Assembly (NCBI RefSeq): GCF_022809125.1
Contig: NZ_JALGBI010000002.1
Coordinates: forward strand, 62,001 to 126,000
Length of the DNA stretch: 64,000 bases
Direction: 5' to 3'
Source: Variovorax terrae
GTDB taxonomy: Bacteria; Pseudomonadota; Gammaproteobacteria; Burkholderiales; Burkholderiaceae_C
Of this stretch, positions 2,425 to 55,990 are shown one piece after another. A program made the position numbers and the translations under genes. Under the pieces are notes generated by a model. It had not been told where the DNA came from, made no database searches, and saw only the letters and a program-made list of their open reading frames with translations. Numbering within the stretch: the first letter of the stretch is position 1; each line of letters opens with the position of its first letter.

Positions 2425-2483
2425 AGTGAAGAAAACGCCCGGATGTCCACGTCCTGCGGTCGTTTGTTGCTATCAATAATGCA
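2425..2483 (-). repeat. Family A dispersed repeat, intergenic copy 1
   Basis: Read on the minus strand it shows the family A pattern: TTGATAGC, then GACCGC, then GTGGACATCCGGGCG, then a TTTTC end. It lies in the 309-bp gap between glpD and the AhpD-like gene. Apart from this copy I see only the ribosome binding site of the next gene there. Confidence 0.65.
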
Positions 2484-2667
2484 GCGATTCTGAGCGGCGC
2501 GCCTCGCCTGAACGCGGCGTATGGGCATCCTGGGGCCGCGCGCGCCAGGGTTCGCGGGCGGTAACAAATGAATCACCCGAGGGGATTCATCTGCCGGCCC
2601 GATTGCGCAACACTGGGGGTCTGGGCCGGGCGTCCTGCCCGGCCCGCTGCTGCGAAGGAGCATGGCC

Positions 2668-3024
2668 ATGCTGGACTGGATCGACTACCGCAAACAACTG
2701 CTGGGCCGCATCGGCGAGATCGGCCGCCTGAGCCCCGACACCCTCAAGGGCTACCAGGCGCTGTCGGGCGCCGGCGAGAAGACCGGCCACCTCGACGCCA
2801 AGACGCGCGAGCTGATCGCGCTGGCCGTCTCGGTGACCACGCGCTGCGACGGCTGCATCACGGTGCACACCGCGCAGGCCGTCAAGCTGGGGGCCACGCG
2901 CGAGGAAATCGCCGAGGCGCTGGGCGTGGCGGTGGCGCTCAACGCCGGCGCCGCCATGGTGTACTCGGCGCGCGTGATGGACGCCGTGCACGCCTACCAG
3001 CCGCAGCCTCAATCCCAGGCCTGA
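2668..3024 (+). CDS. Carboxymuconolactone decarboxylase / AhpD-like protein
   Basis: A 118-residue all-helical protein of the CMD/AhpD family. It carries the AhpD-type redox motif: a Glu (ELIALAV), then CDGC and a His three residues later (CDGCITVH, about residues 67-74). AhpD-like members act as thiol-dependent peroxidases or peroxidase partners; the substrate here cannot be read. Start is ATG 2668, 7 bases after AGGAG at 2656-2660; ATG 2662 is only one base from that site. It stands alone between glpD and the carboxyltransferase gene. Confidence 0.85.
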   Translation: MLDWIDYRKQLLGRIGEIGRLSPDTLKGYQALSGAGEKTGHLDAKTRELIALAVSVTTRCDGCITVHTAQAVKLGATREEIAEALGVAVALNAGAAMVYSARVMDAVHAYQPQPQSQA

Positions 3025-3102
3025 GAGGCTGAAGACCCAGGGGCGCGGCGCCTGTCGCCCGATTGACGCGGCCCGGCGCCGGGGCTGCCGCAAAATCGTG
3101 GC

Positions 3103-4947
3103 ATGACCGAACTCCGCTCCCCCCTGCAGGCCCAGCTCGTGGAATGGCATGTGCAGCCCGGCGACTGGGTGCGCACGGGCGACGTGCTGCTGATCCTCGA
3201 AGCCATGAAGATGGAGCACGAGCTGCGCGCTCCGGCGCCCGGCCGCGTGCGCGAACTCTTCTTTGCCGAAGGCGAGAGCGTGGGCGAAGGCGAGCTGCTC
3301 TTGATCCTGGAGCGCGTCGAGGCCGACCCATCCGGGCCCGCTGCCAGGCATGTGCCAGACAGGCTGGCCGCCGCCGTGACTGGGCTGCCCGGTGCGGCCG
3401 TGCGCGCCGACTGGCAGCGCGTGGCCGAGCGCCATGCCCGCACGCTCGATGCCGCCCGCCCCGAGGCCGTGGCCCGGCGCCATGCACAGGGCCTGCGCAC
3501 CGCGCGCGAGAACATCGCCGAGCTGTGCGATGCCGGCAGCTTCATCGAATACGGCGCGCTGGCCGTGGCCGCGCAGACGCGCCGGCGCAGCATGAAGGAG
3601 TTGATCGCCGCCACGCCGGCCGACGGCATGGTCACCGGCATCGGCAGCATCAACGGCGCGCTGTTCGGCCCCGAGGCCTCGCGCGCCGCGGTCTTGGCCT
3701 ACGACGCCACCGTGCTGGCCGGCACCCAGGGCATGCGCAACCACCAGAAGACCGACCGGCTGCTGGGCATCGCGCTGCGGCAGAAGCTGCCCGTGGTGCT
3801 GTTCGCCGAAGGCGGCGGCGGCCGGCCCGGCGACACCGACATGCCCATCGTGGCCGGCCTGCACGTGCACACCTTCGCCGCCTACGCGCAACTCTCGGGC
3901 CAGGTGCCGGTGGTGGGCATCGTCGCGGGCCGCTGCTTCGCCGGCAACGCCGCGCTGCTGGGCTGCAGCGACGTGATCATCGCCACGCGAAACAGCAACA
4001 TCGGCATGGGCGGCCCGGCCATGATCGAAGGCGGCGGCCTGGGCGTGTTCCGCCCCGAGGAGATCGGCCCGAGCGAGGTGCAGGCCCGCAACGGCGTGAT
4101 CGATGTGCTGGTGGAGAACGAGCAAGAGGCCGTGGCCGCGGCGAAGCAGTACCTGTCGTACTTCCAGGGCCGGCTCGAGGCCTGGGACTGCGCCGACCAG
4201 GCCCTGCTGCGCGATGCCGTGCCCGAGAACCGGGTGCGCGCCTACGACGTGCGCGCCATCCTGCACACGCTGGCCGACACCGGCTCGCTGCTGGAGCTGC
4301 GCCCCGGCTTCGGGCAGGGCATCCTCACCGCGCTGGCGCGCATCGAGGGCCGGCCGGTCGGCCTGCTGGCCAACAACCCCGCGCACCTGGGCGGCGCCAT
4401 CGACGCCGATGCGGCCGACAAGGCCGCGCGCTTCATGCAGCTGTGCAACGCGCACGGCCTGCCGCTGGTGAGCCTGGTGGATACGCCGGGCTTCATGGTC
4501 GGCCCCGAGACCGAGCGGCAGGCCCAGGTGCGCCATGTGGCGCGCCTGTTCGTCACCGCCGCCAAGCTCGGCGTGCCGTACTTCAGCGTGGTGCTGCGCA
4601 AGGGCTACGGCCTGGGCGCGATGGGCATGACGGCCGGCGGCTTCCACGCGCCGGTGTTCACCGTGGCCTGGCCCAGCGGCGAATTCGGCGCCATGGGGCT
4701 GGAGGGCGCGGTGCGCCTGGGCTACCGCAAGGAGCTCGAGGCGCTGCCCGAGGGGCCGCAGCGCGAGGCGCTGTACGAGCAGCTGGTGGCCCAGCAGTAC
4801 GAGGCGGGGCAGGCCCTCAACATGGCGGCCACGCTGGAGATCGACGCCGTGATCGACCCGGCCGGCACGCGCGCCTGGCTGGTGCGCGGCCTGGCCTCGG
4901 CCGCGCCGGCCCAGCCGGCCGCCACGCGCTTCATCGACACCTGGTGA
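3103..4947 (+). CDS. Biotin carrier-carboxyltransferase fusion (acyl-CoA carboxylase subunit)
   Basis: A 614-residue protein joins two parts of a biotin-dependent acyl-CoA carboxylase. Residues 1-75 form a biotinyl domain with the canonical attachment site EAMKMEHEL, Lys36 being the expected biotinylated residue. Residues about 110-610 form a PccB/MccB-type carboxyltransferase, with a glycine-rich segment near GGGGRPGD and the CoA-pocket sequence VDTPGFMVGPETE. There is no biotin carboxylase domain and no such gene next to it, so the partner must be encoded elsewhere. The acyl-CoA substrate is not evident; propionyl-, methylcrotonyl- and geranyl-type enzymes all share this fold. The gene stands alone on the plus strand. 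Confidence 0.82.
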   Translation: MTELRSPLQAQLVEWHVQPGDWVRTGDVLLILEAMKMEHELRAPAPGRVRELFFAEGESVGEGELLLILERVEADPSGPAARHVPDRLAAAVTGLPGAAVRADWQRVAERHARTLDAARPEAVARRHAQGLRTARENIAELCDAGSFIEYGALAVAAQTRRRSMKELIAATPADGMVTGIGSINGALFGPEASRAAVLAYDATVLAGTQGMRNHQKTDRLLGIALRQKLPVVLFAEGGGGRPGDTDMPIVAGLHVHTFAAYAQLSGQVPVVGIVAGRCFAGNAALLGCSDVIIATRNSNIGMGGPAMIEGGGLGVFRPEEIGPSEVQARNGVIDVLVENEQEAVAAAKQYLSYFQGRLEAWDCADQALLRDAVPENRVRAYDVRAILHTLADTGSLLELRPGFGQGILTALARIEGRPVGLLANNPAHLGGAIDADAADKAARFMQLCNAHGLPLVSLVDTPGFMVGPETERQAQVRHVARLFVTAAKLGVPYFSVVLRKGYGLGAMGMTAGGFHAPVFTVAWPSGEFGAMGLEGAVRLGYRKELEALPEGPQREALYEQLVAQQYEAGQALNMAATLEIDAVIDPAGTRAWLVRGLASAAPAQPAATRFIDTW

Positions 4948-6025: not shown

Positions 6026-6077
6026 GGTGTATCTCAGTGATCCATGACGCTGCGCGCCATCCACAAAGCATGCAATC

Positions 6078-6181
6078 GGTGCGGCCCAGGCCCGGGCCAC
6101 CGCGGAGCCGGCTTTGCCGGGCCGCTGGTGGCGCCCCCTAGAGGGGGAGGCGCCGCAGGCGCTTCGGGGGTGGTTTTCATA
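6078..6181. repeat. Family B repeat at the glcD stop codon
   Basis: About 104 bp containing two nested inverted repeats: CCCCCTAGAGGGGG flanked by GGCGCC-type arms, and GGCGCCGCAGGCGC. Its end reads, on the minus strand, as a segment beginning GAAAACCACCCCCGAAGCG only a few bases after the glcD stop. Related copies lie at 10103, 22010 and 50503. Sited between glcD and lrgA, it may end or insulate glcD transcription. Confidence 0.7.
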
Positions 6182-7686: not shown

Positions 7687-7848
7687 AGGCCCTTACTTTA
7701 GGGCAGCCGGGGCGCTGGTGCCATGAAGGATCATGCACAGGTTTGTGAAAGAAATTCGGGAATGCGTCCATCCGGCTCTGCCGGTGCACTGCATGGCCCC
7801 TGTGTCAGGGAGGCGGCTATAGGCCGCATCGGGGGCGTAAAATGGCTT

Positions 7849-7903
7849 GGCGCCGATTTGAGCTACAGCTTGCGGGCGCCTTATAAATGCCGCTAAAGCG
7901 AAC
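7849..7903 (+). promoter_or_regulatory. SAM-II riboswitch aptamer
   Basis: The segment follows the SAM-II layout. Arm GGCGCC (7849-7854) pairs with GGCGCC (7875-7880), and the loop begins GATTTGAGC and ends GCTTGCG. The conserved 3' pseudoknot strand with its A-rich linker is ATAAATGCCGCTAAAGCG. A -10-like TAAAAT lies at 7838-7843. SAM-II RNAs bind S-adenosylmethionine and usually control methionine-biosynthesis genes, which fits the sulfur amino-acid enzyme downstream. Confidence 0.82.
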
Positions 7904-7909
7904 GTGACC

Positions 7910-7946
7910 AGCCCGTTTCGTCTCTGCGGTACGGGCTTTGCTTTTT
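7910..7946 (+). terminator. Rho-independent terminator, riboswitch expression platform
   Basis: Arms AGCCCGT (7910-7916) and ACGGGCT (7931-7937) are followed by TTGCTTTTT. The terminator lies between the SAM-II aptamer and the start codon, so SAM binding probably causes early termination. The ribosome binding site of the gene follows it directly. Confidence 0.8.
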
Positions 7947-10102: not shown

Positions 10103-10185
10103 GGAGGCCACCGCGGAACCGGCTCTGCCGGGCCGCTGGTGGCGCCCCCCCTTGGGGGGGAGGCGCCGCAGGCGCTTCGGGGGGG
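10103..10185. repeat. Family B repeat at the purU stop codon
   Basis: A copy of the element at 6078-6181, with the same GGCGCCGCAGGCGCTTCGGGG block and a CCCCCCC/GGGGGGGG hairpin. It ends directly at the purU stop codon (TGA, 10188-10186) and fills the gap to the LysR gene. Confidence 0.7.
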
Positions 10186-12571: not shown

Positions 12572-13579
12572 ATGTTCCAGCGCCTTCGCCATGTTGTGTC
12601 CACGAATCTGCCCGGTGTGCTGGTGTGCGGTGTCATCGCGCTGGCCGCCACCTTCCTGTCCGAGCACTACGGCGGTCCGCAGCTGCTCTATGCGCTGCTG
12701 ATCGGGCTGGCCTTCCATTTCCTGATGGGCCACCCGCAGGTCAAGCCCGGCATCGATTTCTGCGGCCGCACCGTGCTGCGCATCGGCGTGGCGCTGCTGG
12801 GCGCGCGCATCACGCTCACGCAGGTGGCCAAGCTGGGCGTGGCCTCGGCCGTGGTGGTCGTGCTGGCGGTCGCGCTCACCATCCTGTTCGGTGTGCTGCT
12901 GGCGCGCTGGCTCGGGCGGCCGCGCGAGGAGGGCTTGCTGTCGGGCGGCGCGGTGGGCATCTGCGGCGCCTCGGCCGCGCTGGCCATCTCGTCGGTGCTG
13001 CCGCAGACCAAGGAGAACGAGCGCTTCACGCTGCTGGCCGTGGTCGGCGTCACGGTGCTGTCCACGCTGGCCATGGTGATCTACCCGTTCAGCCTGCAGG
13101 CGCTGGGCCTCACGCCCGAGCAGTCGGGCATCTTCCTGGGTGGCACCATCCATGACGTGGCCCAGGTGGTGGCCGCCGGCATGATGCTCGGCCCGCAGGC
13201 CGGCGACGTGGCCACGGTGGTCAAGCTGTTCCGCGTGATGCTGCTGATGCCGGTGGTGCTGGTGATCGCCATGCTCTACCGCAGCCACCCCGCGGCGCGC
13301 GCGGCCGACGAACAGGTGCCGCTGGTGCCCGGCTTCCTGCTGGCCTTCATCGTGCTGGTGCTGCTGGCCACCGTGGGCGTGTTCACGCCGCCGATGACGC
13401 AGGCCGCCAGCGACACTTCGCGCTGGATGCTGGTGACCGCGATCGCGGCGGCCGGCGTCAAGACCTCGTTCGAGGACTTGCTCAAGCTCGGCTGGCAGCC
13501 GGTGGCCATGCTGGTGGGCGAGACGGTGTTCATCGCCGCGCTGGTGCTGGCGGCGGTGCTCGGCCTACGGCTGGGCTGA
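12572..13579 (+). CDS. yeiH: YeiH/UPF0324-family membrane protein
   Basis: A 335-residue membrane protein with about ten hydrophobic segments. Family landmarks are FLMGHPQVKPGIDFCGRTVLRIGVALLG, GGAVGICGASAALA and LGGTIHDVAQVVAAG. The family is annotated as putative sulfate exporters; the substrate is not shown by sequence. Start ATG 12572 (MFQRLRHVV) is chosen; the upstream in-frame TTG falls just past the terminator. Its 3' end overlaps the convergent chaN-like gene by 15 bases. Confidence 0.85.
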   Translation: MFQRLRHVVSTNLPGVLVCGVIALAATFLSEHYGGPQLLYALLIGLAFHFLMGHPQVKPGIDFCGRTVLRIGVALLGARITLTQVAKLGVASAVVVVLAVALTILFGVLLARWLGRPREEGLLSGGAVGICGASAALAISSVLPQTKENERFTLLAVVGVTVLSTLAMVIYPFSLQALGLTPEQSGIFLGGTIHDVAQVVAAGMMLGPQAGDVATVVKLFRVMLLMPVVLVIAMLYRSHPAARAADEQVPLVPGFLLAFIVLVLLATVGVFTPPMTQAASDTSRWMLVTAIAAAGVKTSFEDLLKLGWQPVAMLVGETVFIAALVLAAVLGLRLG

Positions 13580-14410
13580 CGCGGCGCCCGTGCGCGCGGG
13601 CAAGGCCCGCTCCAGCTCGGCGCAGTGGTCGAGCGGGGGCACCGGCGGCGTGGCCCACACGCTGTCGAAATCTGCTCCGTTTTTCATAGCATCCAACGAC
13701 CCGCCGGCCTGGACCTTGACCGCTTTTGCCTTGAAATCCGGCGGCAGGTGGCGGGCCACGCCGAGCGAGCGGTCGACATGGCCCGCGCCGGCGATCAGCA
13801 GCACGGTGCGGCCCGGCACGGCGGCCTGCTGCAGCGTCTGCGCCATGCTGCGGTCGCGCGCGATCTGGATGCGCGTCATCGGCGTGATCTGGCTTTCGGG
13901 CAGCAGGCCGCAGTGGCCGGCGCGGATGGCCTGCTGCTGCGCCTTGAGCGCCGGGCCGGGCAACTGCTGGTCCAGCGCGGCGTCGGCCATGGCCTCGCGC
14001 AGGCGGCTGCGCGGCAGGTTGGCGCCCAGCACCGGCACACCCGCGCGCACCGCCGCCATCACGGCCGGCCCGTAGGAGCGCCAGGGCCAGGCGCGCTCAT
14101 CCCAGTGCAGGGCGTCGCGCACCCGGGCCTCGCCGGCGTCGCGCGGCAGGCCCGCGGTGGAGCCGCCCTGGTCGGCCATCTCCAGCACCAGGGCTGCCAG
14201 CACGCCGCGCTCGGCCAGCAGCGCGGTGCTGTCGCGTTCGAGGCGGTGATGGTCCTCGGCGTCGTGCTGCTCACCGAGCAGCAGGGCGTCGGCCGGCAGC
14301 AGCGCGTCCAGGCGCGTGGCCAGCGCGGGCCCGGCGGGGCCCGGGCCGGCGCAGGCGGCCAGCAACATGGCGGGCAGCAGCAAGGCCATGACAGTGGTTC
14401 GACAGTGCAT
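13565..14410 (-). CDS. ChaN-family lipoprotein
   Basis: A 281-residue exported protein. Residues 1-20 form a lipoprotein signal peptide ending in the lipobox LLAAC (Cys20). The mature part shows ChaN family landmarks LLLGEQHDAEDH, LVLEMADQG and the C-terminal LLIAGAGHVDRSLGV. ChaN of Campylobacter binds haem and is linked to iron uptake; the role here is unproved. Residues in the region FKAKAVKVQAGGSLDAMKNG are encoded by a family A repeat. It is divergent from the AbrB-type gene, with 33 bases between starts. Confidence 0.82.
   Translation of the reverse strand: MHCRTTVMALLLPAMLLAACAGPGPAGPALATRLDALLPADALLLGEQHDAEDHHRLERDSTALLAERGVLAALVLEMADQGGSTAGLPRDAGEARVRDALHWDERAWPWRSYGPAVMAAVRAGVPVLGANLPRSRLREAMADAALDQQLPGPALKAQQQAIRAGHCGLLPESQITPMTRIQIARDRSMAQTLQQAAVPGRTVLLIAGAGHVDRSLGVARHLPPDFKAKAVKVQAGGSLDAMKNGADFDSVWATPPVPPLDHCAELERALPARTGAASAQP
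13672..13735 (+). repeat. Family A repeat inside the chaN-like gene
   Basis: Read on the plus strand: TTTTTCATAGC, then AACGACCCGCCGGCCTGGACC, then CGCTTTTGCC. This matches the family A pattern. It lies in frame near the C-terminus of the ChaN-like protein without disrupting it. Confidence 0.65.
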
Positions 14411-17139: not shown

Positions 17140-17224
17140 ATGAAAAATGGCCCCCACGCTCCGCCGCTGCGCGGGTCGCTTCCCCCCGAGGGGGCGCTTT
17201 TCGTCTTGGGGCGGCCCGGCAACG
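17140..17224. repeat. Family C repeat next to the DUF3567 gene terminator
   Basis: Contains CCCCCACGCTCCGCCGCTGC, a CCCCCCGAGGGGGCG hairpin, and TTGGGGCGGCCCGGC. Related copies lie at 49568-49664 (inside recG) and 53457-53512. The 237-bp gap between the lipoprotein and DUF3567 genes holds only this repeat, the terminator beside it and the lipoprotein gene's upstream region. Confidence 0.7.
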
Positions 17225-17667: not shown

Positions 17668-18699
17668 TCAAGGCTTCTCGACGGAGCGCAACTGCTGGTC
17701 CGCGAAGTCGCCGTTGGACTGCGTCAGCTTCAGGCGCACCGGCAGGTAGCCGAGCGAGGGCGCCAGCCAGAGCTCCACCTTCTGGTCGAACTCGCGGCGC
17801 GGGCTGCGCACCAGCTTCAGCGCCGGCATGGTGCCGGCGGGCAGGCTCAGCGGTTCCTCGCCTTCCACGGTGAATAGCCAGACGTCGGCCTCGCGCGCGC
17901 CGACGGTCTGCATGCTGAGGGCGGTGCCTGCGGGGTAGCGGGCCGGGTCGCCGGCGATCATGGCGCCGAGCTGCAGGAACACGCTCAGGCGGTCCTGCGC
18001 GCCGGCCAGCAGCGGCGCGTCGGGCGTGTTGGCGCTGAACACCACCTTGCCCTTGTCGCGCTCGAAATGCGCAGCCTGCTCGCTGCGCTGCTTGTCGCCA
18101 AACCGGGTGGGGGCCAGCCCCTCGGCGGTGATGCGTCCGGCGCTGCTCTGCGTGCGCGAGCCCATCAGGAAGGCGCTGACCTCGAGCCGGGCGTCGTAGC
18201 TGCTGCCGTCCTGCAGCCACAGCAGCTCGCTGCGCACGTTGTAGGACTGCTTCCTGGATTCGCCGTTGACGCTGTAGCCGAGCCGGACCGAGCCGGGAAT
18301 GCTGAAGGCCGTGGTGCGCGCGGCATCCACCGGCGGCGCGGCAGGGGGCACGGGCGCGGCGGCCACGGCTTCGGCGGCTGGCGGCGGTACCTCGGATGCT
18401 ATCGAATCAATAGCAGAAAATGACCGCTGCACCTGGACCTGCGGCGTATTTGCATCTGAAACGGAGCTGCGCGGCGGCCGGGGCGCCGGCCGCGCGGCCG
18501 GTGGGGCGGCGGGCGGGGCCGGCGCGGGTGCCGCGGGCTTGATCTCGATGCTGCGCGTGATGAACTGGCGCAGGGCGGGCGGCGCGCGCCCGTCCGGCGC
18601 CGGAGGAACGGCCCGCAGCAGCGCCAGGTGCGCCAGCACGACCGCCGCCCCCAGCGCGGCCAGCGGCCGCCAGCGCACCGCGGGCGCCGCCCCGTTCAT
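17668..18699 (-). CDS. DUF3108 domain protein with N-terminal membrane anchor
   Basis: A 343-residue protein. Residues about 10-28 form a membrane segment, and residues 30-125 are rich in Pro and Ala, as in periplasm-spanning linkers. The C-terminal part (from about FSIPGSVRLGYSVNG to KLTQSNGDFADQQL) is a DUF3108 beta-rich domain. Its job is unknown; DUF3108 proteins are periplasmic. Residues about 82-105 are encoded by a family A repeat. Start ATG 18699 overlaps the stop of the upstream iclR-type gene as ATGA, so the two are probably translationally coupled. Confidence 0.78.
   Translation of the reverse strand: MNGAAPAVRWRPLAALGAAVVLAHLALLRAVPPAPDGRAPPALRQFITRSIEIKPAAPAPAPPAAPPAARPAPRPPRSSVSDANTPQVQVQRSFSAIDSIASEVPPPAAEAVAAAPVPPAAPPVDAARTTAFSIPGSVRLGYSVNGESRKQSYNVRSELLWLQDGSSYDARLEVSAFLMGSRTQSSAGRITAEGLAPTRFGDKQRSEQAAHFERDKGKVVFSANTPDAPLLAGAQDRLSVFLQLGAMIAGDPARYPAGTALSMQTVGAREADVWLFTVEGEEPLSLPAGTMPALKLVRSPRREFDQKVELWLAPSLGYLPVRLKLTQSNGDFADQQLRSVEKP
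18391..18455 (+). repeat. Family A repeat inside the DUF3108 gene
   Basis: Read on the plus strand: TGCTATCGAATCAATAGC, then GACCGCTGCACCTGGACCTG, then CGGCGTATTTGCATCTGA. This is one of the best-preserved copies. It lies in frame in the Pro/Ala-rich linker, where extra residues should be tolerated. Confidence 0.75.
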
Positions 18700-19472
18700 C
18701 CGCCGCCGTACCCCAGGTCGCTCGACAGCTGCGCGGCGGCCTTCTTGAGGGACTGGGCCACCTTGCCGTCCCACTGGGCGTCGAAGCTCGAGGCTGGCCC
18801 GAGCGAGACGATGCCCAGGGCGATGTGGCCGTCCGAATCGAACACCGGCGCGCAAAAGCCCACCACGCCCGGCAGCAGCGAGTCGATCACGCGCCCGAGG
18901 CCGTGGCGGCGCACCTCGTCGAGCATGCCGTCGACCTCGGCCAGGCTGGTCGGCAGGTCGCGCCGGTTGAGCTTCTGCGCGCGCGCCAGCTCCGCGTTGA
19001 GCAGCGGCGCGATGGCCTCGCGCGACATGTGGGCCGCAAAGCAGCGGCCGGTGGCCGACGACAGCAGCGGCATCACGTCGCCCAGGCGCAGGATGGTCAT
19101 GGCGTTGGGCGATTCCTCCCAGTGCACGATGGTGGGCCCGTGGTTGCCCCAGACCGCCAGCGCCAGCGTGTGGCCGATCTGCTCCATCAGCGGCACCACG
19201 CGCTCGCGCGCCAGCTTCACGGCGTCCAGCCGCGACAGCGAGGCCAGGCCCAGCTTGAGCGCGGCGGGGCCGAGGTCGTAACGGGTGCTGGTGGCGTCCT
19301 GCGTCACCAGATCGAGCCGCTGGAAGCTCACCAGGTAGCGGTGCGCCTTGGCCGCGCTCATGCCGGCAGCGGCGGCCAGGTCGCGCAGCATCAGCGGGCC
19401 GGCGGCCTGGGCCAGCACGCCCAGCAAGCTGAACCCCACTTCGACAGACTGGATACCGGCGCGCTCTTTCAT
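18696..19472 (-). CDS. IclR-family transcriptional regulator
   Basis: A 258-residue IclR regulator. The winged helix-turn-helix (residues about 8-70, LRDLAAAAGMSAAKAHRYLV) precedes the effector domain with the family motif LPGVVGFCAPVFDSDGHI. It is divergent from the FAH-family hydrolase gene and probably controls it; IclR regulators often respond to aromatic breakdown products. Start ATG 19472. Its stop codon overlaps the start of the DUF3108 gene. Confidence 0.9.
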   Translation of the reverse strand: MKERAGIQSVEVGFSLLGVLAQAAGPLMLRDLAAAAGMSAAKAHRYLVSFQRLDLVTQDATSTRYDLGPAALKLGLASLSRLDAVKLARERVVPLMEQIGHTLALAVWGNHGPTIVHWEESPNAMTILRLGDVMPLLSSATGRCFAAHMSREAIAPLLNAELARAQKLNRRDLPTSLAEVDGMLDEVRRHGLGRVIDSLLPGVVGFCAPVFDSDGHIALGIVSLGPASSFDAQWDGKVAQSLKKAAAQLSSDLGYGGG

Positions 19473-26209: not shown

Positions 26210-26216
26210 TTGCTCC

Positions 26217-36085: not shown

Positions 36086-36802
36086 ATGAGCGACACCCCC
36101 AACCCCTTCGGCTTCGGTAAATTCGTCCCCGGATTCGACTTCCTGCAGAACCTGGCCAAGGGGGCGTCGCAGAACATCCCCCAGATGCCCAACCTCGCCA
36201 ACTGGGTGGCGCCCACGCTCAACGTCGAGGAGCTGGACAAGCGCATCGAGGAGCTCAAGGCCGTGCAGTTCTGGCTCGACCAGAACGCCACCGCGCTCAA
36301 GGCCACCATCCAGGCGCTGGAGGTGCAGAAGATGACGCTGGCCACGCTCAAGGGCATGAACTTCAACATGGGCGACGTGGCCAATGCGTTCAAGCTCAAG
36401 GCCGCCGACACCGTGCTGTCGGGCGTGCAGAAGGTGACCGACACCGCCGCCGACACGGCCAAGACCCTGTCCGGCGTGGCCGCCAAGGGCCGCGCCTCGC
36501 GCAAGAAGAGCGCGGCCGCACCGGCCGCGGCGGCCGGCGTGGTCGATCCGATGCAGTGGTGGGGCGCGCTCACCAGCCAGTTCCAGCAGATCGCGGCCGG
36601 CGCGATGAAGGACGCGGCGCGCCAGACCGCGGTCGACACCACCCGGAACATGGCCACCGGCCTCGCCAAGGGCGCGCTCAAGACAGCCGCCGATATGGCC
36701 CAGGTTGCTACCAAAACCGTAGCAGCCAGTGTCGGCGGGACGCGGACCCCGGCCCGAAAATCCGCTAAAAAGAGCCCCGCGCGCAGCCGCCGGGCCGGCT
36801 GA
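36086..36802 (+). CDS. phaM: PhaM-type polyhydroxyalkanoate granule regulatory protein
   Basis: A 238-residue protein resembling Ralstonia PhaM: VPGFDFLQNLAKGASQN, NWVAPTLNVEELDKRIEELK, VQFWLDQNATALKATIQALE, then MTLATLKGMNFNM. PhaM activates PHA synthase and links granules to DNA through a basic tail. Here the tail is [18 protein letters not shown]. Much of residues 207-229 is encoded by a family A2 repeat. AGGAG precedes ATG 36086. The FIST gene follows after 10 bases, so they may be cotranscribed. Confidence 0.85.
   Translation: MSDTPNPFGFGKFVPGFDFLQNLAKGASQNIPQMPNLANWVAPTLNVEELDKRIEELKAVQFWLDQNATALKATIQALEVQKMTLATLKGMNFNMGDVANAFKLKAADTVLSGVQKVTDTAADTAKTLSGVAAKGRASRKKSAAAPAAAAGVVDPMQWWGALTSQFQQIAAGAMKDAARQTAVDTTRNMATGLAKGALKTAADMAQVATKTVAASVGGTRTPARKSAKKSPARSRRAG
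36704..36766 (+). repeat. Family A repeat in the 3' part of phaM
   Basis: TTGCTACCAAAACCGTAGC, then AGCCAGTGTCGGCGGGACGC, then CCCGAAAATCCGC. It is of the A2 subtype, like the copy at 30036. It lies in frame in the linker just before the basic DNA-binding tail. Confidence 0.6.
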
Positions 36803-41011: not shown

Positions 41012-41060
41012 CTATCAAAAGAGGAGCAACCCGGCGCTGTCCGCGTGGTTGCCGCTCCCC
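41012..41060 (-). terminator. Terminator hairpin of the glycine riboswitch
   Basis: On the minus strand GGAGCGGCAACC pairs, with a small bulge, with GGGTTGCTCC and runs into TCTTTT. It lies between the aptamer and dadA and is the likely expression platform. Confidence 0.65.
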
Positions 41061-41148
41061 CTGTCCTTGGTACCTGAGAGATTCACCCGCCGGTTCTCCG
41101 GGGGGCTTGCTCCTTCGGTGCATCACGGTGGTGATGGCTCTCCAGACG
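41061..41148 (-). promoter_or_regulatory. Glycine riboswitch (single aptamer)
   Basis: On the minus strand the core reads CTGGAGAG, a hairpin (CCATCACCACCGTGATG), CACCGAAGGAGCAAGCC, then GGAGAA, and closes GGTGAATCTCTCAGGTACC with AAGGACAG. These are the conserved glycine aptamer blocks. I see one aptamer only. Glycine riboswitches usually raise expression of glycine-use genes when glycine is abundant. It lies about 100 bases upstream of dadA. Confidence 0.85.
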
Positions 41149-41459
41149 GCTTTTCAGTGTGTGCAGTACGGAACCTGAGCGTGTATGGGAGTTTGCGCCT
41201 TCGGTGGAACGCGGCTGGCGCGTTCGCTCTCCTGCAGCTGTCCATTGTAGAGGGAGTCGGGCAGTGCGGTATCGCCTGCCGGTACGCGGCGTGCCGCCTG
41301 GCAGGCCCCGGCGAAGCAGCGCCGCCGGCCGGGGGCCGCGCGGCCACACTGGCGCCGTGGATGCCACCCGGGAGAAGGCATGAGCCGCCCCCGGAACCGC
41401 CACAGGCCTGCGGCACAATCTGCCGCAACATCGACGCCGACCGTGAAGAGGAGCCCCGT
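41149..41459. other. Divergent upstream region without a gene
   Basis: No credible coding sequence is seen in these 311 bp between the glycine riboswitch and the LplT-PlsC gene. On the minus strand TACAAT (about 41244-41249) could be a -10 box for the riboswitch transcript, but no good -35 is seen. GAAGAGGAG at 41445-41453 is the ribosome binding site of the plus-strand gene. Confidence 0.5.
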
Positions 41460-43382
41460 ATGACGAGCCAGAGCAGCCCCGCCGCCGCCCCCGCGCCGGG
41501 CGAGCACCCCAACCAGTTCGCGCTGCTCCGGCAACGCCGCTTCGCGCCCTTCTTCTGGACGCAGTTCTCGGGCGCGGCCAACGACAACCTGTTCAAGTTC
41601 GCCTTCACCGTGATGGTGACCTACCAGCTCAGCGTGGGCTGGCTGCCGCCGGCGATGGCGGGGCTGGTGATCGGTGCGCTGTTCATCCTGCCGTTCCTGC
41701 TGTTCTCGGCCACCAGCGGCCAGCTCACCGACAAGCACGACAAGACGGTGATGATCCGCTTCGTGAAGAACCTGGAGATCGTGATCATGGCGATCGCGGC
41801 CTGGGGCTTCTACAGCGAGAACGCGGCGGTGCTGCTGGGCTGCACCTTCCTCATGGGCCTGCACTCCACGCTGTTCGGCCCGGTCAAGTTCGCCTATCTG
41901 CCGCAGGTGCTCAATGAGCGCGAACTGACCGGCGGCAACGGCATGGTGGAGATGGGCACCTTCGTCGCGATCCTGCTGGGCAACGTCGTGGGCGGGCTGA
42001 TCATGGCGGTGCCCGAGGTCGGCCACCGCGACGTGGCCATCGCCTGCGTGCTGCTGGCGCTGGCGGGGCGCGCGGTGGCGCAGTTCATCCCGAGCGCGCC
42101 GGCCACCGACCCGGGCCTGAAGATCAACTGGAACCCGGTCAGCGAGACCTGGCGCAACCTGCGGCTGGCGCACGACAACATCGTGGTCTTCCGATCGCTG
42201 CTGGGCATCAGCTGGATGTGGTTCTTCGGCGCGGTGTTCCTGAGCCAGTTCCCGAGCTTCGCCAAGGAGGTGCTGCACGGCAACGAGCAGGTGGCCTCGC
42301 TGCTGCTGGTGGTGTTCTCCATCGGCATCGGCACCGGCTCGCTCCTGTGCGAGGTGCTGAGCCGCCGCCACATCGAGATCGGCCTGGTGCCGCTGGGCGC
42401 GATCGGCATGAGCGTGTTCGCGGTGGACCTGTACTTCGCCGCGCGCGGCCTGCCGCCGGCCGACAGCCTCACGTTGGGCCAGTTCGTGGCGATCGGCGCG
42501 CACTGGCGCGTGATGGCCGACCTGGCGCTGCTGAGCCTGTTCGCGGGCCTGTACAGCGTGCCGATGTACGCGCTGATCCAGATGCGCGCGCAGCCCACGC
42601 ACCGCGCCCGCATCATCGCGGCCAACAACATCCTCAATGCGCTGTTCATGATCGCCAGCTCGGTGATCGCGGGCGGGCTGCTCGAGGCCGGCTTCACCAT
42701 CCCGCAGATCTTCCTGCTGGTGGGCCTGGCCAATGCGGTGGTGGCCTTCTACATCTTCATGCTGGTGCCCGAGTACCTGCTGCGCTTCATCGCCTGGGGC
42801 GCCTCGCGCTTCATCTACCGCTTCCGGGTGCGGGGCGACGAGCACATCCCGATGCAGGGCGCGGCCGTGCTGGTGTGCAACCATGTGAGCTTCGTCGATG
42901 CGGTGCTGCTGATGGCGGCCAGCCCGCGGCCGATCCGCTTCCTGATGGATCACCGCATCTTCCGTTTCCCGGTGCTGGGCTGGCTGTTCCGGCTGGCCAA
43001 GGCCATCCCGATCGCGCCGCAGAAGGAAGACCCGGCCGCCTACGAGGCCGCCTTCGAGCAGGCCGCCGAGGTGTTGCGTGAGGGCGACCTGCTGGCCATC
43101 TTTCCCGAGGGCGGCATCACGCGCGACGGGCAGATCCAGGAGTTCAAGGGCGGCATCATGAAGATCCTCGAGCGCGCGCCGGCGCCGGTGATCCCGATGG
43201 CGCTGACCAACCTCTGGGGCTCGTACTTCAGCCGCATCGAGAAGGAAGGCGCCATGGTGCGGCCGTTCCGGCGCGGCATGTTCAGCCGCGTCGGCCTCAA
43301 CGTGGGCGCGGCCCTGGCGCCGGCCGAGGTCCAGCCGCAGCCGCTGCGCGAACGCGTGGCGGCCCTGCTGGCGCAGGGCTGA
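41460..43382 (+). CDS. LplT-type MFS transporter fused to PlsC-type acyltransferase
   Basis: A 640-residue fusion. Residues about 25-425 form an MFS transporter related to lysophospholipid flippase LplT (FWTQFSGAANDNLFKFAF at the first helix). Residues about 430-635 form a 1-acylglycerol-3-phosphate acyltransferase domain with the catalytic HVSFVD (H-x4-D) and the FPEGGITRDG block. Together they could import and re-acylate lysophospholipids. Many relatives carry a third acyl-ACP synthetase domain (Aas); it is absent here. Start ATG 41460 follows GAAGAGGAG. Confidence 0.86.
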   Translation: MTSQSSPAAAPAPGEHPNQFALLRQRRFAPFFWTQFSGAANDNLFKFAFTVMVTYQLSVGWLPPAMAGLVIGALFILPFLLFSATSGQLTDKHDKTVMIRFVKNLEIVIMAIAAWGFYSENAAVLLGCTFLMGLHSTLFGPVKFAYLPQVLNERELTGGNGMVEMGTFVAILLGNVVGGLIMAVPEVGHRDVAIACVLLALAGRAVAQFIPSAPATDPGLKINWNPVSETWRNLRLAHDNIVVFRSLLGISWMWFFGAVFLSQFPSFAKEVLHGNEQVASLLLVVFSIGIGTGSLLCEVLSRRHIEIGLVPLGAIGMSVFAVDLYFAARGLPPADSLTLGQFVAIGAHWRVMADLALLSLFAGLYSVPMYALIQMRAQPTHRARIIAANNILNALFMIASSVIAGGLLEAGFTIPQIFLLVGLANAVVAFYIFMLVPEYLLRFIAWGASRFIYRFRVRGDEHIPMQGAAVLVCNHVSFVDAVLLMAASPRPIRFLMDHRIFRFPVLGWLFRLAKAIPIAPQKEDPAAYEAAFEQAAEVLREGDLLAIFPEGGITRDGQIQEFKGGIMKILERAPAPVIPMALTNLWGSYFSRIEKEGAMVRPFRRGMFSRVGLNVGAALAPAEVQPQPLRERVAALLAQG

Positions 43383-46058: not shown

Positions 46059-48261
<2,203 letters not shown>

Positions 48262-48330
48262 GTGCTTGAGGGCCTGACAAACCCGTGCCAAGTGGGAAGG
48301 GAAAAAGAAAAGACAGGGCAGAATTGTCCC

Positions 48331-50502
48331 ATGACCGACAAGAAGGAGATGTCCGCGCCGCAAAAAGCCTTGCTCAAGCTTGGCCTGGCGCGTGACATCG
48401 ACCTGGCCCTGCACCTGCCGCTGCGCTACGAGGACGAGACCCGCATCGTGAAGCTGAGCGAGGCGCGCGAGGGCGACACGGCGCAGATCGAGGCCACGGT
48501 CACGGCCTGCGAGGTGACGTTCCGCCCGCGCCGGCAGCTGCTGGTGACGGTGGACGACGGCAGCGACACCTGCGTGCTGCGCTTCTTCAACTTCTACCCC
48601 TCGCAGCAGAAGGCGCTGGCCGTGGGCACGCGCATCCGGGCGCGCGGCGAGCTCAAGGGCGGCTTCCTGGGCTGGACCATGATGCATCCCTCGTTCCGCG
48701 CCGCCGGCGGCGAGCTGCCCAACGCGCTGACGCCGGTCTATTCCACGGTGGCCGGCCTGCCCCAGGCCTACCTGCGCCGCGCCGTGCTGGGCGGCCTGGC
48801 GCGCGCCGACCTGTCGGACACCTTCCCGCCGGGCGTGGCGGTGCCCGAGGCCGTTTTTTCAAGGAAAAATGGCCAGAGGTCCGCGTGGGGCCTACGTGAG
48901 TCGCTATCATTTTTGCACCAACCTGCGCCCGATGTGGCACTCGCCACGCTGGAGGACCACAGCCACCCGGCCTGGCAGCGGCTCAAGGCCGAGGAACTGC
49001 TGGCGCAGCAGCTGTCGCAGCTGCAGTCCAAGCGCGAGCGCGCCCGGCACCGCGCGCCCGCGCTGGCGGCGCCGGCCGGCGGCCTGCACGAGAAGCTGCT
49101 GGCGGTGCTGCCGTTCCAGCTCACGCGCGCCCAGCACCGCGTGGGCGAGGACATCGCGCGCGATCTGGCGCGCCCCGTGCCCATGCACCGCCTGCTGCAG
49201 GGCGACGTGGGCTCGGGCAAGACCGTGGTGGCCGCGCTGGCCGCGGCGATCTGCATCGACGCCGGGCGCCAGTGCGCGCTGATGGCGCCCACCGAAATCC
49301 TGGCCGAGCAGCATTTCCGCAAGCTCATCGGCTGGCTCGAGCCGCTGGGCGTGCGCGTGGCCTGGCTCACCGGCGGCCAGAAGAAGAAGGAGCGCGCCGC
49401 CATGCTCGCGCTGATCGCCAGCGGCGAGGCCGGCCTGGTGGTGGGCACGCATGCGGTGATCCAGGACCAGGTGCAGTTCCGCAGCCTGGCGCTGGCCATC
49501 ATCGACGAGCAGCACCGCTTCGGCGTGGCGCAGCGGCTGGCGCTGCGCGGCAAGATGCAGGAAAGCGCGCGGCCCGGCAGCATCGCCGCCAGGCCGCCCC
49601 AAGGCGATGCTGCCCCCTCGGGGGGCAGCGACCCGCGCAGCGGCGGAGCGTGGGGGCTGTCAGTTTCCGAGCCGCATCTGCTGATGATGACCGCCACGCC
49701 GATCCCGCGCACGCTGGCCATGAGCTACTACGCCGACCTCGACGTCTCCACCATCGACGAGCTGCCGCCAGGGCGCACGCCCATCGTCACCAAAGTGATC
49801 GCCGAACAGCGGCGCGAGCAGGTGGTCGAGCGCATCCGCGCGCAGCTCGCGCAGGGCCGGCAGGTCTACTGGGTCTGCCCGCTGATCGAAGAGAGCGAGA
49901 CCGTGGACCTGACCAACGCCACGGCCACGCACGAGGCCCTGAGCGCGGCCCTGCCCGGCGTCATGGTGGGCCTGCTGCATTCGCGCATGCCGGCGGCCGA
50001 GAAGAAGGCGGTGATGTCGCTGTTCACCGGCGGCCAGATGGGCGTGCTGGTCTCCACCACCGTGATCGAGGTCGGCGTGGACGTGCCCAATGCCTCGCTG
50101 ATGGTGATCGAGCATGCCGAGCGCTTCGGCCTGTCGCAGCTGCACCAGCTGCGCGGGCGCGTTGGGCGCGGCGCGGCGGCCTCGGCCTGCGTGCTGCTGT
50201 ACTCGGCGGGTGACAGCGGCCGGCTCGGCGAGACCGCGCGGGCGCGGCTCAAGGCCATGGCCGAGACCGGCGACGGCTTCGAGATCGCGCGGCGTGACCT
50301 CGACATCCGCGGCCCCGGCGAGTTCCTGGGTGCGCGCCAGTCGGGCGCGGCGCTGCTGCGTTTTGCCGATCTGGCCACCGACACCGACCTGCTGGAATGG
50401 GCGCGCGCAACTGCACCGGCCATGCTGGATCGGCACCTCGAATGGGCCCGCCGGCACGCCGAACGCTGGTTGGGTGGAAAATCGGAGTATCTGAAGGCCT
50501 GA
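48331..50502 (+). CDS. recG: ATP-dependent DNA helicase RecG with two repeat-derived insertions
   Basis: A 723-residue branch-migration helicase that remodels stalled forks and Holliday junctions. The wedge/OB domain spans about residues 1-150; Walker A is GDVGSGKT, the DExH box DEQHRFGV, and motif VI lies in [10 protein letters not shown]. It is some 30 residues longer than E. coli RecG. Two segments explain this: about residues 177-197 (family A repeat) and about 413-445 (family C repeat, a Gly/Ser/Pro-rich stretch between DEQH and TATPIPRT). Both keep the frame. Confidence 0.93.
48860..48920 (-). repeat. Family A repeat inside recG
   Basis: On the minus strand: AAAAATGATAGCGACTC, then GGCCCCACGCGGACCTCTGG, then CCATTTTTCC. 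It is a diverged copy. It adds roughly 12-16 residues between the RecG wedge domain and the segment [15 protein letters not shown]. Confidence 0.6.
49568..49664. repeat. Family C repeat inside recG
   Basis: On the minus strand it reads CCCCCACGCTCCGCCGCTGC, GCGGGTCGCTGCCCCCCGAGG, then CTTGGGGCGGCC, matching the intergenic copies at 17140 and 53457. It is in frame, adds about 33 residues, and lies between helicase motif II and motif III. Confidence 0.8.
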
Positions 50503-50690
50503 AATGAAAACCACCCCCGAAGCGCCTGTGGCGCCCCGTGCACGCAGCCAGAGGCTGCGGCTCTTCGGGCTGTCCAAGCCTGCGCAGGCAGGCTTGGAGC
50601 CGCAGCCCTCAGCTCCCAAGGGGGCGCCACCCGCGGCCCGGCCAAGCCGGCTCCGCGGTGGCCGGGGTCTGGGCCGCACCGCTATGGATA
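50503..50690. repeat. Family B repeat between recG and oxyR
   Basis: It begins one base after the recG stop with ATGAAAACCACCCCCGAAGCG and contains GGGGGCGCCACC and AGCCGGCTCCGCGGTGGCC, the same blocks as 6078-6181 in reverse. An extra internal inverted repeat (CAAGCCTGCGCAGGCAGGCTTG) enlarges this copy to about 188 bp. It fills the gap and overlaps the oxyR upstream region. Confidence 0.7.
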
Positions 50691-51690: not shown

Positions 51691-52590
51691 ATGATGAACC
51701 ACGCACAACCCGGCATCCTGCCTCCCGTGCCCGCCGTCGGGCGCTACGTCTTTTTCTCGCTGGCGCACCGCGAGGGCGCGCGCGACGCCCTGGCCCGGCT
51801 GGCGCCGCTGGCGGATGGCGCGACGGTGGTGGTGGCGCTCGGGCCGTCGCTGGTGGCCGCCGTGGGCGCCGCGGTGCCTGGCCTGCGGGAGTTTCCCGCG
51901 ATGGCGGGCCCTGGCGTCGAAGTGCCTTCCACGCCCACGGCGCTGCTGTGCTGGCTGCGCGGCAGCGACCGCGGCGACCTGGTGCTCAAGACGCGCCTGC
52001 TCGAAAAGGCCCTGGCGCCGGCGTTCCACCTGGACCGCGCGATCGAGGCCTTCCGCCACGGCCCGGTGGACAGCGACCATGGCCGCGACCTCACGGGCTA
52101 TGAGGACGGCACCGAAAACCCCGAAGGCGAGGCTGCCGAGGCAGCCGCCTTCGTGCAGGCCGGCGGGCCGGGGCTGGACGGGTCGAGCTTCGTGGCCGTG
52201 CAGCAGTGGGTGCACGATTTCGACGCCTTCGAGCGCATGAGCCCCGCCGAGCAGGACAATGCCATCGGCCGCCGGCGCAGCGACAACGAGGAGCTGGAAG
52301 ACGCGCCCGAGGCCTCGCACGTCAAGCGCACGGCGCAGGAGAGCTTCGATCCCGAGGCCTTCGTGCTGCGCCGCTCCATGCCCTGGGCCATGGGGTCGCG
52401 CGCCGGCCTGCTGTTCGTGGCCTTCGGCAAGTCGCTGGACGCGTTCGAGGCGCAGATGCGCCGCATGGCCGGGCAGGACGACGGCATCGTGGACGCGCTG
52501 TTCGGTTTCTCCCGGCCGCTGTCGGGCGCCTACTTCTGGTGCCCGCCGATGCTGGGCGGCCGGCTCGACCTGCGGCAGCTCGGCCTGTGA
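51691..52590 (+). CDS. DyP-type haem peroxidase
   Basis: A 299-residue dye-decolourising peroxidase. The family motif GxxDG appears as [13 protein letters not shown], with the catalytic Asp, and the proximal haem His is in [13 protein letters not shown]. The end has [15 protein letters not shown]. It lacks an export signal, so it acts in the cytosol or in an encapsulin. It follows oxyR and overlaps the ubiA start (TGATG). Start ATG 51691 or 51694. Confidence 0.9.
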
Positions 52591-53450
52591 TGCGGCGCGA
52601 GCGGCTGCGGCTGTACCTGGACCTGATCCGCTGGGATCGCCCGGCCGGCTGGCTGCTGCTGCTGTGGCCCTCGCTGAGCGCGCTCTGGATCGCCGCCCAC
52701 GGCTTCCCCGGCTGGCCCCTGGTGGCGGTGTTCACGCTGGGCACCATCCTGATGCGCAGCGCGGGCTGCTGCGTCAACGACGTGGCCGACCGCGAGTTCG
52801 ACCGCCACGTCAAGCGCACCGCGCAGCGGCCGGTGACGGCCGGCAAGGTGTCGGTGAAGGAAGCGCTGGTGCTCGGGGCCGTGCTGGCCCTGGCGGCCTT
52901 CGCGCTGGTGCTGACCACCAACGCCGCCGCCATCGCCTGGTCGTTCGCGGCGCTGGCCGTCGCGCTGATCTATCCCTATGCCAAGCGCTACGTGTCGATG
53001 CCGCAGGCGGTGCTGGGCGTGGCCTTCAGCTTCGGCATCCCGATGGCGTTCGCCGCCGTGCAGTCGCGCGTGCCGCTGACGGCCTGGGTGCTGCTGCTGG
53101 GCAACCTGTTCTGGGTGCTGGCCTACGACACCGAGTACGCCATGGTGGACCGCGACGACGACCTGAAGATCGGCATGAAGACCTCGGCCATCACGCTCGG
53201 CCGCCTCGATGTGGCCGTGGTCATGCTCAGCTACCTGGCTTACCTGGCAATTTGGGTCGGGGTCCTTGCCAGCCGGTCATTGGGTGCTATCTTTTATGTA
53301 GCAATCGGCATCGCGGCGGCGCAGGCGGCCTGGCACTACACGCTGATCCGCGGGCGCACCCGCGAGGGCTGCTTCAAGGCTTTCCGGCTCAACCACTGGG
53401 TCGGGTTCACCGTGTTCGCGGGCATCGCGGGCAGCTACGCGCTGGCGTGA
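52590..53450 (+). CDS. ubiA: 4-hydroxybenzoate polyprenyltransferase
   Basis: A 286-residue membrane enzyme that prenylates 4-hydroxybenzoate in ubiquinone synthesis. The two Asp-rich motifs are [19 protein letters not shown] and [18 protein letters not shown], and about nine membrane helices are visible. Residues about 223-241 are encoded by a family A repeat that lies within a membrane segment. Start ATG 52590 overlaps the DyP stop. Confidence 0.92.
53256..53312 (-). repeat. Family A repeat inside ubiA
   Basis: On the minus strand: TTGCTACATAAAAGATAGC, then ATGACCGGCTGGCAAGGACC, then CCGACCC. Read in the ubiA frame it gives [18 protein letters not shown], part of a hydrophobic helix pair. 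Confidence 0.6.
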
Positions 53451-54695: not shown

Positions 54696-54708
54696 GGGAA
54701 GGGTGCCC

Positions 54709-55871
54709 TCATTCGATGAATTCAAAGGCCGCGAACTGGGTGATCTGGCCGGGGTTGAAATTGTCGTCGCTCACGAAGACCAGCGTGCGCCCGCCGCCGG
54801 GCAGGGGCGGGCCCCAGGTCATGCCCTCGGTGTTGTCGAGGCGGCGCAGGCCGGTGTGCGCGAAATCGGCCACCAGGGCCTTGGCGGCCGGGCGGTGGTT
54901 GCCGGGCTGCAGCGCCGGCAGCGCCAGCGTGTCGCTGGCCTGGCGCGTGTCGATCAGATAGAGCCGCAGCGAGGTGCCCACGCCGGCCATGTAGGCGCGC
55001 TCCAGCACCAGCAGCGCTCGCCGTCGACCATCAGGATCTCGCTCACGCCGTTGTCGGCCGGGCCGCCGGGCGGCACCGGGGCCTGCGGGATGGCGTCGGG
55101 CACGTAGGCGATCTGGCGCACGGCCTCGCCCCGGTCCAGATCGACCAGCGTGAAGCGGCAGGGGCCGCCGGGCGCGCCCACCGTGGGCATGGGGCCGTCC
55201 TGCACCAGCGCGTTCTCCATCGCCACCCAGGCCTGGCGGCCGTCGGGCGTCAGGCTCAGGCCCTCGAAGCCGAGGTTGTCGCGCGGCCCCCGCGCGGCAT
55301 CGGGCGAGGGCTGGAACAGGGCCGGCAGGTTGAATTCGCGCAGCAGCGTGCCGTCGGGGCGGGCTTCGCGCAGCGCCGGGCCGAAGCCGCGCCGCAGGTC
55401 GCCCTCGCTGGTCCACAGCAGCGTGCCGGTCTCTGGGCGCCGGCGCAGGGCCTCGGGGTCGGGCACGTCCACGCCCGGCGCCGGGCTGCGGCGTCCCGGG
55501 TAGGGCTGGCCGTCGGCGCGCCGCAGCGTGACCACGGCCTGCAGCTCCACCGGGCCGAGCCGGTCCGCCTGCAGCGCCATGCGGGCCGTGTAGAGGCGGG
55601 CCGGCTGCAGATCGGAGCGGTCGTCGCTGAGCAGGTAGTAGAGGCCGCTGGCCGGGTCGTAGTCGATGCCCGACAGGCCGCCCACGGTGGTGCCCTGGAA
55701 CGCCAGCCGGTGCGCCAGCGTGGTGTCGCCGATCAGGCGCAGGCGCGGCGTTGCGCGCGCCGCCGGGCCGGCCGTCGAGGCGCAGCCCGCAGTGGCGCCG
55801 AGGGCCACCGCGCCGGCGCCGAGCAGCAGGCGGCGGCGGGCGAGGAGGGCGGGCATCGGGGAGGTCGTCAT
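54709..55871 (-). pseudogene. Phytase-like esterase family lipoprotein, frameshifted
   Basis: Two overlapping frames together give one protein of the esterase-like phytase family (PF13449). The N-terminal frame (ATG 55871) has a signal with RRRLLLGAGAVALGATAGC, a lipoprotein/Tat-like export signal, then GGLSGIDYDPASGLYYLLSD. It loses sense after ILMVDGER. The other frame resumes with ALLVLERAYMAGVGTSLRLY and ends NFNPGQITQFAAFEFIE. The shift lies at about 55013-55022. No slippery heptamer is seen, so it is either a true pseudogene or a sequencing error. Confidence 0.75.
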
Positions 55872-55921
55872 GGCCGGAAGTTTAGAGCTTGCCGCGCCCT
55901 CTGGGGCGGCGCCGGAGGCCC

Positions 55922-55990
55922 GGATCAGGTCCAAAAAGGGCGGAGGTCCAGGTGTGCTGGTCGTTGGGTGCTATTGATTTTGTAGCATTC
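55922..55990 (-). repeat. Family A repeat, intergenic copy upstream of the second glpD
   Basis: On the minus strand: ATGCTACAAAATCAATAGC, then CGACCAGCACACCTGGACC, then TCCGCCCTTTTTGGACC. It fills most of the gap between the divergent esterase and glpD genes. Confidence 0.7.

Follow-up and report, generated by a model that had tools for sequence, protein, structure and literature searches.

A dispersed palindrome-and-core repeat of Variovorax terrae, possibly a double-stranded DNA signal with genus-specific dialects

The 64-kb stretch of Variovorax terrae DNA considered here (the whole stretch analysed, called the window below; positions 62001-126000 of contig C2 in a genome of 4.93 Mb and five contigs, labelled G000) carries ten sites of a dispersed repeat of about 65 bp, which consists of a palindrome, a 32-nt core and A/T-tracts. 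The original prediction, made from the letters of the window, took the repeat for a short mobile or gene-conversion element that adds protein sequence. We believe that it is probably a double-stranded DNA signal of some kind, held in place in the genome, so far as this can be judged by comparing sequences. That the signal is of the uptake type, by analogy with DNA uptake sequences (DUS), seems to us nearly an even question.

The family of copies is large. When the 23-nt core GACCGCTGCACCTGGACATCCGG was run against the entire genome at up to three mismatches, it gave 72 matches, and the reversed pattern gave 0. The nhmmer search covered a sample of 864 kb (40 stretches of 20 kb and the window) with reversed and locally shuffled decoys. 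At 12 bits or more it gave 99 matches against 0 reversed and 0 shuffled ones; at 10 bits or more there were 106 matches against 1 and 0, respectively. The presence of copies beyond chance, anticipated in the original prediction, is therefore confirmed. The 99 matches occupy 98 distinct places, which extrapolates to about 550 copies per genome, or about one per 9 kb. Scoring of the whole genome with the sequence model yielded at least 150 copies (all those scored, from 4316 first-look candidates); the model was built from 30 copies picked by their core, so its information content is inflated. Literature searches, from whose scope most subscription journals fell out, met neither the motif description nor any of six exact forms of the palindrome.

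The consensus of the 30 copies begins with the palindrome tGCTAT-nnA/T-tract-ATAGCa, continues with the core nCCAATGACCGCTGCACCTGGACATCCGGC and ends with two A/T-tracts about 9 bp apart. The conserved positions are distributed across the roughly 65 columns, and a short core of about 9-12 bp, of the type of DUS and uptake signal sequences (USS), was not found. The palindrome spacer is A-rich in 34 of 96 copies and T-rich in 46. The arms do not covary at the two variable pairs: pair 6-16 is paired in 59 of 96 copies (61.3 after shuffling) and pair 7-15 in 40 (43.9), the outer three arm pairs being barely variable. Core columns 38-39 show CT in 65, GC in 31 and AA in 13 of 121 copies, with few intermediates; 25 of the 121 had been selected by core. 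No subfamilies emerged, since linked feature pairs (p<0.01) numbered 1 of 55 in 96 copies and 2 of 55 in 47 intergenic copies. Linkage along the element is short-range, and the separate parts of the motif vary almost independently. A hairpin or RNA function and a recent origin from a master copy are disfavoured because they predict arm covariation or linkage and the opposite is seen; it is also possible that the copies are old and their linkage was erased by mutation. Considering that the arms do not covary and that the spacer may be A-rich or T-rich, recognition at the double-strand level is the best reading.

We take the family to be Comamonadaceae, as inferred from the names of genome_contigs records. 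The palindrome, with one mismatch or fewer, was found in 18 of 60 relatives, all of them among the 36 family genomes (G000 included), and in 0 of 24 genomes of other families. Of the 140 genera of the family, 50 have it, 35 of these with at least five matches; the reversed pattern gave 3 matches in total. Outside G000 the local core has 16 matches, in 13 of 298 family genomes, versus about 20 for the reversed control, and its exact form is absent from genome_contigs (where near records may be omitted). Thus, among the 299 family genomes the core is essentially private to this one. In other genera different cores occupy the same slot; the consensus cores are equal in length and have their GGC end in the same columns. 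They read AGCGCTT..AAGCGCT..GGCC in G010/G023, TTGGCGC..CAAGGG..GGCC in G014 and AATACGCC..GGCGTATT in G031. Our model of the relatives' core has 44 rows (42 distinct), retained from 45 by a simple consensus score; eight G031 stretches were excluded from it because their core is different. Among the 99 palindromes of G000 that score 13 or more with the position weight matrix (PWM), the core is local in 74 and closer to the relatives' type in 8; the other 17 resemble neither, and chance surely accounts for some of them.

The exact relatives' form occurs in at least 120 genome_contigs stretches. Among the 80 matches listed, 66 are named Comamonadaceae or genera belonging to that family; Acidovorax, Polaromonas, Rhodoferax, Curvibacter, Giesbergeria and others are represented, and the remaining matches have broad names, apart from one Bacteroidetes metagenome-assembled genome. 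The exact relatives' form was found in 0 viral contigs (the local form was not sought there), and a similarity search of plasmids gave a match in 1 of 72,556 records.

In-gene sites were compared with orthologous genes. The sites were hand-picked: 16 were prepared, 14 searched (AceF and ChrA were not) and 13 compared, YgjP having been dropped because the motif lies at its N-terminus. The 13 genes are presumably Pgi, Dxr, SelO, PurL, KdtA, HrpA, P450, FdhB, an EamA protein, DprA, a peptidase-like protein, UbiA and IleS. Nine of the 13 sites in this genome belong to the 30 copies used to build the model; their orthologues do not. Occupancy was counted only in orthologues spanning the element (118 pairs), at a palindrome cut-off of PWM 10 or more. 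In motif-bearing genera, the palindrome is present at the aligned stretch in 29 of 65 orthologues versus 1 of 232 control windows taken from these genes; the counts are 0 of 35 in motif-free genera (controls 0 of 108) and 0 of 18 in other families (controls 0 of 60). The 29 shared palindromes represent 7 genera and 11 of the 13 genes, and 24 have the same offset. Of these 29 sites, 25 score positively with the model of the relatives' core and 0 with the local one; for 5000 random 32-mers of the same loci the numbers are 45 and 2, and at 29 sites of motif-free genera and other families they are 0 and 0. A simple count of sites where the relatives' model beats the local one (29 of 29) was discarded, since 4700 of the 5000 random 32-mers give the same outcome. 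Shared palindromes with relatives' cores suggest that many sites probably predate the genus and that their cores have since been re-spelled. The idea of homogenised copies in the original prediction gains support here: the core is private even at sites common to other genera.

The origin of the in-gene copies was approached through net lengths, obtained from tblastn alignments with motif-free genera and other families by summing the gaps up to 12-15 aa away from the element. Of 8 Dxr orthologues, 7 align without gaps and the eighth is longer; for IleS and for UbiA, 2 of 3 orthologues are gap-free and the remaining one is longer; all 5 SelO orthologues have at least the length found here. At these four of the 13 sites no motif-free orthologue is shorter, and the alignments indicate no net insertion. 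HrpA shows mixed net lengths. Only DprA is longer on balance by all 21-22 aa, relative to two of the three motif-free genera, and FdhB comes close to this in a comparison with one orthologue; the DprA of the motif-bearing G002 has the local length, and the motif is not there. For Dxr, UbiA and IleS, the peptide encoded under the motif is closer to each motif-free or other-family orthologue than any other same-frame motif peptide is (11 of 11), a comparison resting on these three genes. In our reading of the alignment, the differences of Dxr from G003 and G004 are mostly towards the local consensus. The original prediction would have been undermined by orthologues that lack the repeat and have the same protein sequence; the comparisons go part of the way towards this. 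At eight sites the protein is longer here than most or all of the motif-free orthologues compared, and insertion is possible there.

The placement of copies was studied for 83 of them (matches with E<=0.001 in the 40 stretches and eight from the window) using a home-made gene caller (88% coding), which wrongly called at least two copies of the window, those in ChaN and DUF3108, intergenic. At least 25 copies lie inside genes (a lower bound), 44 are intergenic and 14 overlap gene ends. The in-gene copies are 13 same-strand (11 in one phase) and 12 antisense (11 in one phase); reading the consensus, we infer that part of this phase bias must be due to stop codons in the other frames. Among the 58 copies outside called genes, 24 are in convergent gaps and one is in a divergent gap, convergent and divergent gaps making up 42 and 93 of the 363 background gaps of at least 60 bp. 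The adjacent gene ends are 63 3' ends versus 17 5' ends, and the motif orientation relative to the 3' ends is even (31 vs 32). Six low-GC stretches, 120 of the 864 kb, hold 3 of the 98 copies. The copies thus occupy permissive sites and are depleted in acquired DNA, low GC being only a proxy for the latter. In one low-GC stretch (L107, at about 16293; contig C1 near 526 kb) the core beside a palindrome departs from the local dialect, and the stretch could be an acquired island with a foreign dialect.

The mechanism that we propose relies on analogy with the known uptake systems. The palindrome with its A/T-tract spacer, the 32-nt core and the downstream A/T-tracts would form a putative double-stranded recognition signal, carried by several hundred chromosomal positions, at least some of which probably arose in place on tolerant sequence and not through a 65-bp insertion. 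Genera have core dialects of their own, and orthologous sites would be re-spelled upon a change of dialect. A putative cell-surface or DNA-processing receptor would prefer DNA with the local dialect, and transformation together with homologous recombination would keep swapping poorer matches for better ones, which would amount to a molecular drive.

DUS (Neisseriaceae) are of about 10-12 bp and USS (Pasteurellaceae) of about 30 bp, both occur about once per 1 kb, and both often serve as terminators between convergent genes. The repeat resembles them in its hundreds of dispersed copies in both orientations, its permissive sites, its depletion in acquired DNA and its lineage dialects. DUS reportedly belong to the core genome and to permissive sites, are conserved and do not occur in recent acquisitions, and many new ones are reported to originate through recombination (Treangen and co-workers, PMC2397512), and DUS dialects have been described (PMC3630211).

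A number of observations weigh against the explanation by an uptake signal, or against a signal held in place. The motif is longer than DUS and USS (a palindrome and 32-nt core within about 65 bp versus roughly 10-30 bp) and rarer (about one per 9 kb versus about one per 1 kb). On contig C1 the orientation follows the replichore in 67 of 98 copies (Fisher p 0.0012, an optimistic value, as the switch point was first noticed in part of the same copies), and we know of no replichore orientation bias in DUS or USS. ComEC is present in 34 of the 36 family genomes, motif-bearing or not, so the presence of competence genes was dropped as an uninformative discriminator; no uptake receptor is known to us in this family. 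In motif-bearing genera 36 of 65 orthologues lack a clear palindrome, and none is shared at DprA (0 of 7 motif-bearing orthologues) or P450 (0 of 1). In G003, Dxr reaches a local-core score of 12.3 with no palindrome present, and resemblance of the host sequence may explain part of this match. Every compared motif-free orthologue is shorter by 2-15 aa at Pgi, KdtA, EamA and the peptidase-like protein, the PurL orthologues are shorter in 7 of 8 (by 3-8 aa), P450 and FdhB differ by -11 and -20 aa (one orthologue each), and DprA by -14, -21 and -21 aa relative to three motif-free genera; the longer protein at eight of the 13 sites may be what insertion would also give. Mismatches of in-gene copies are not enriched at codon positions 1-2, and this test of insertion versus in-place origin found no difference. 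Finally, some linkage is present: z is above 4 for 36 of the 703 column pairs, of which 19 are non-adjacent and 5 are five or more bases apart.

The orientation linked to the replichore is not present on contigs C2 and C3. Replichore polarity as a general rule was rejected: it holds on C1 only, and the 89 of 150 scored copies that are concordant (with C2 taken as '-' and C3 as '+') make a weak case with an ambiguous skew. On C1 the sign of the GC skew changes at about 1.86 Mb, near the flip of the predominant motif orientation.

The same facts can be viewed as the traces of a protein that binds throughout the chromosome, such as a factor of the nucleoid, of segregation, of replication or of repair, and whose specificity drifts by genus, the binding sites following by selection and independently of transformation. 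We place this on the unlikely side, although such a drifting site explains nearly as much as the uptake signal does. Every result obtained at the double-strand level applies to it equally, and the orientation of the 67 copies on C1 fits a replication or segregation site; however, this bias is limited to C1, and several hundred long sites, many of them within genes or in convergent 3' gaps and in either orientation, are unlike the segregation and repair sites known to us. An RNA-level element, i.e., a terminator, a stabiliser of mRNA or a target of a small RNA (sRNA), would account for the clustering at gene 3' ends, and single copies of the relatives can form a core hairpin. It is nevertheless very improbable in our opinion, considering the even orientation both at the 3' ends and within genes, the arms that do not covary and the lack of any Rfam family at the sites; a hairpin or RNA function is ruled against by the arm covariation test.

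It is unlikely, we believe, that the repeat is mobile, similar to miniature inverted-repeat transposable elements (MITE) or Rickettsia palindromic elements (RPE), with an early insertion in the family and later homogenisation by gene conversion or template switching. RPE are insertions that add residues; they have in-frame copies in unrelated protein genes, a palindromic part and copies outside genes, and our repeat shares these features apart from the addition, which is lacking at four of 13 sites, and apart from its sites being common to genera with other cores. The apparent full 21-aa gain at DprA against two of three motif-free genera, where the 7 motif-bearing orthologues compared have no palindrome, the proteins of KdtA, Pgi, EamA and PurL, which exceed most motif-free orthologues by 2-15 aa, and the other genera's cores at orthologous sites, as conversion would give, all speak for a mobile repeat. 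Against it are the lack of gain at Dxr, SelO, UbiA and IleS with host residues kept at three of them, the DprA of G002 with the same length and no motif, the short range of linkage and the non-covarying arms. The length of the element is thus added fully in a way compatible with MITE or RPE at DprA, partially or variably at other sites and not at all at four, and subfamilies of linked variants were not found (1 of 55 feature pairs). The 0 viral contigs and the single plasmid record likewise give no support to mobility, and the mobile element of the original prediction is contradicted at several sites.

No driver of mobility was found either. A reverse transcriptase was rejected, as this genome has no RVT_1 match (11 of 40 searched genomes have one). 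A transposase of the type associated with repetitive extragenic palindromes (REP), RAYT, was rejected as well, since Y1_Tnp, with a single match here, occurs in motif-bearing and motif-free genomes alike; in G020 there are 39 palindromes and Y1_Tnp has no match. No full motif lies within about 2.5-3.2 kb of the single Y1 transposase gene of this genome. In 12 relatives the surroundings of Y1_Tnp gave 0 matches of the full model, which represents the local dialect and is little informative there; a palindrome scan of 13 Y1_Tnp stretches gave matches in four. REP are short, palindromic and mainly extragenic, with genome-specific variants, and the repeat is similar in all these respects; unlike REP/RAYT, it has no Y1 transposase flanked by copies and no compensatory changes in the arms. 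Six taxon names were sought in the REP/RAYT survey PMC3733652 and did not occur there. The Bordetella BRE (Betaproteobacteria repeat element) is described in PMC3110155 as a dispersed repeat of about 90 bp and 69% G+C, often tandem in variable number, partly in coding sequences and listed in Comamonadaceae too. We rejected BRE as the same element because the size and composition, the features compared, differ.

Nine of the ten window sites given in the original prediction reach 12 bits; the tenth, at 30036, has the left palindrome only. Four copies are intergenic: 2422-2486 (-), of full length (39.3 bits in nhmmer, 39.5 in cmsearch); 26211-26276 (+), directly past the stop codon of a TraB/PrgY/GumN-family open reading frame (ORF; 25214-26209, PF01963), with 61.6 bits and a core identical to the search pattern; 27581-27638 (+), ahead of the TonB receptor ORF 27661-30012, with 38.3 bits; and 55925-55987 (-), with 36.6 bits. 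The six in-gene copies all lie within open frames, as was stated earlier. Among the antisense ones are 13673-13737 (+; 20.0 bits in nhmmer; peptide DFKAKAVKVQAGGSLDAMKNGA) within the ChaN gene (13565-14410, -; Pfam PF04187), and 18397-18461 (+; 61.5 bits; peptide VSDANTPQVQVQRSFSAIDSIA) within the Pro/Ala-rich region of the DUF3108 ORF (17668-18855, -; Pfam PF11306). A degenerate copy at 36705-36770 (+; 13.4 bits) lies near the C-terminus of the ORF 36086-36802 (+), which was previously called phaM and has no Pfam match; another, at 48856-48914 (-; 12.7 bits), lies within RecG (47641-50502, +; RecG domains in the Pfam search). The copy at 53239-53304 (-; 17.0 bits) has a degenerate core in the open frame 52587-53450 (+), which we take to be UbiA; the nhmmer match there is 53274-53304, i.e., the conserved palindrome and the first core bases only, and orthologous palindromes are found in G002 and G014.

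The site at 30036-30101 (+) is a palindrome with a non-local core at the signal-peptide-like start of the DUF1775/YcnI gene (30026-30565, +; Pfam search). It scores 17.6 with the palindrome PWM, -4.3 with the local core and 4.4 with the relatives' core, and it fails with the full model (cmsearch E 1.8). A second subtype, earlier proposed for 30036 and 36704, may hold for the former; the latter has a core of the local kind, which scores 13.6 with the local model and -5.6 with the relatives' one. The 30036 stretch reads AIKTIAACAL within the signal-peptide-like start. It is similar to a stretch at about 10670 of L106; both have non-local cores and are possibly in paralogous genes.

Some observations stand apart from the above. 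In G003 (C1 1836740-1837544) the ComEC match is in three pieces, seemingly in different frames, which suggests a broken gene; the same genome has few strict palindromes. The window has a second, G+C-rich repeat family in pieces of about 30-65 bp with CCCCC..GGGGG runs and inverted copies up to 98% alike (6077-6180, 10106-10158, 17150-17195, 22016-22068, 49612-49657, 50504-50535 and 50619-50681), whose composition seems to resemble that of BRE (PMC3110155). Two stretches of 269 nt, 819-1087 and 56118-56386, have 71% identity and are probably paralogous coding sequence. The Rfam search of the window gave three matches, none at motif sites: a SAM_alpha riboswitch (7840-7917, +), a glycine riboswitch (41051-41155, -) and the Burkholderia sRNA Bcj11 within a called gene (42154-42275, +); the motif sites therefore belong to no RNA family described there.

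Taken in full, our proposal is an uptake-type self-recognition signal of Comamonadaceae, the longest and most modular known, with a family-wide palindrome, a genus-specific core acting as a species barrier, and hundreds of positions re-spelled in concert with a putative reader protein; in this complete form it is possible and rather doubtful. To our knowledge, genome-wide DNA signals with dialects are established only in Neisseriaceae and Pasteurellaceae. If the proposal is true, this would be the third independent case, in a large environmental family, and with a fixed and a switchable part. The switch of dialect could then be read base by base at orthologous sites, so that the origin of such a signal (drive or selection, substitution or recombination) would become directly testable. 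If the reader is instead a protein of the chromosome, its cognate signal would be unusually long. Annotators should not take such stretches for inserted peptides.

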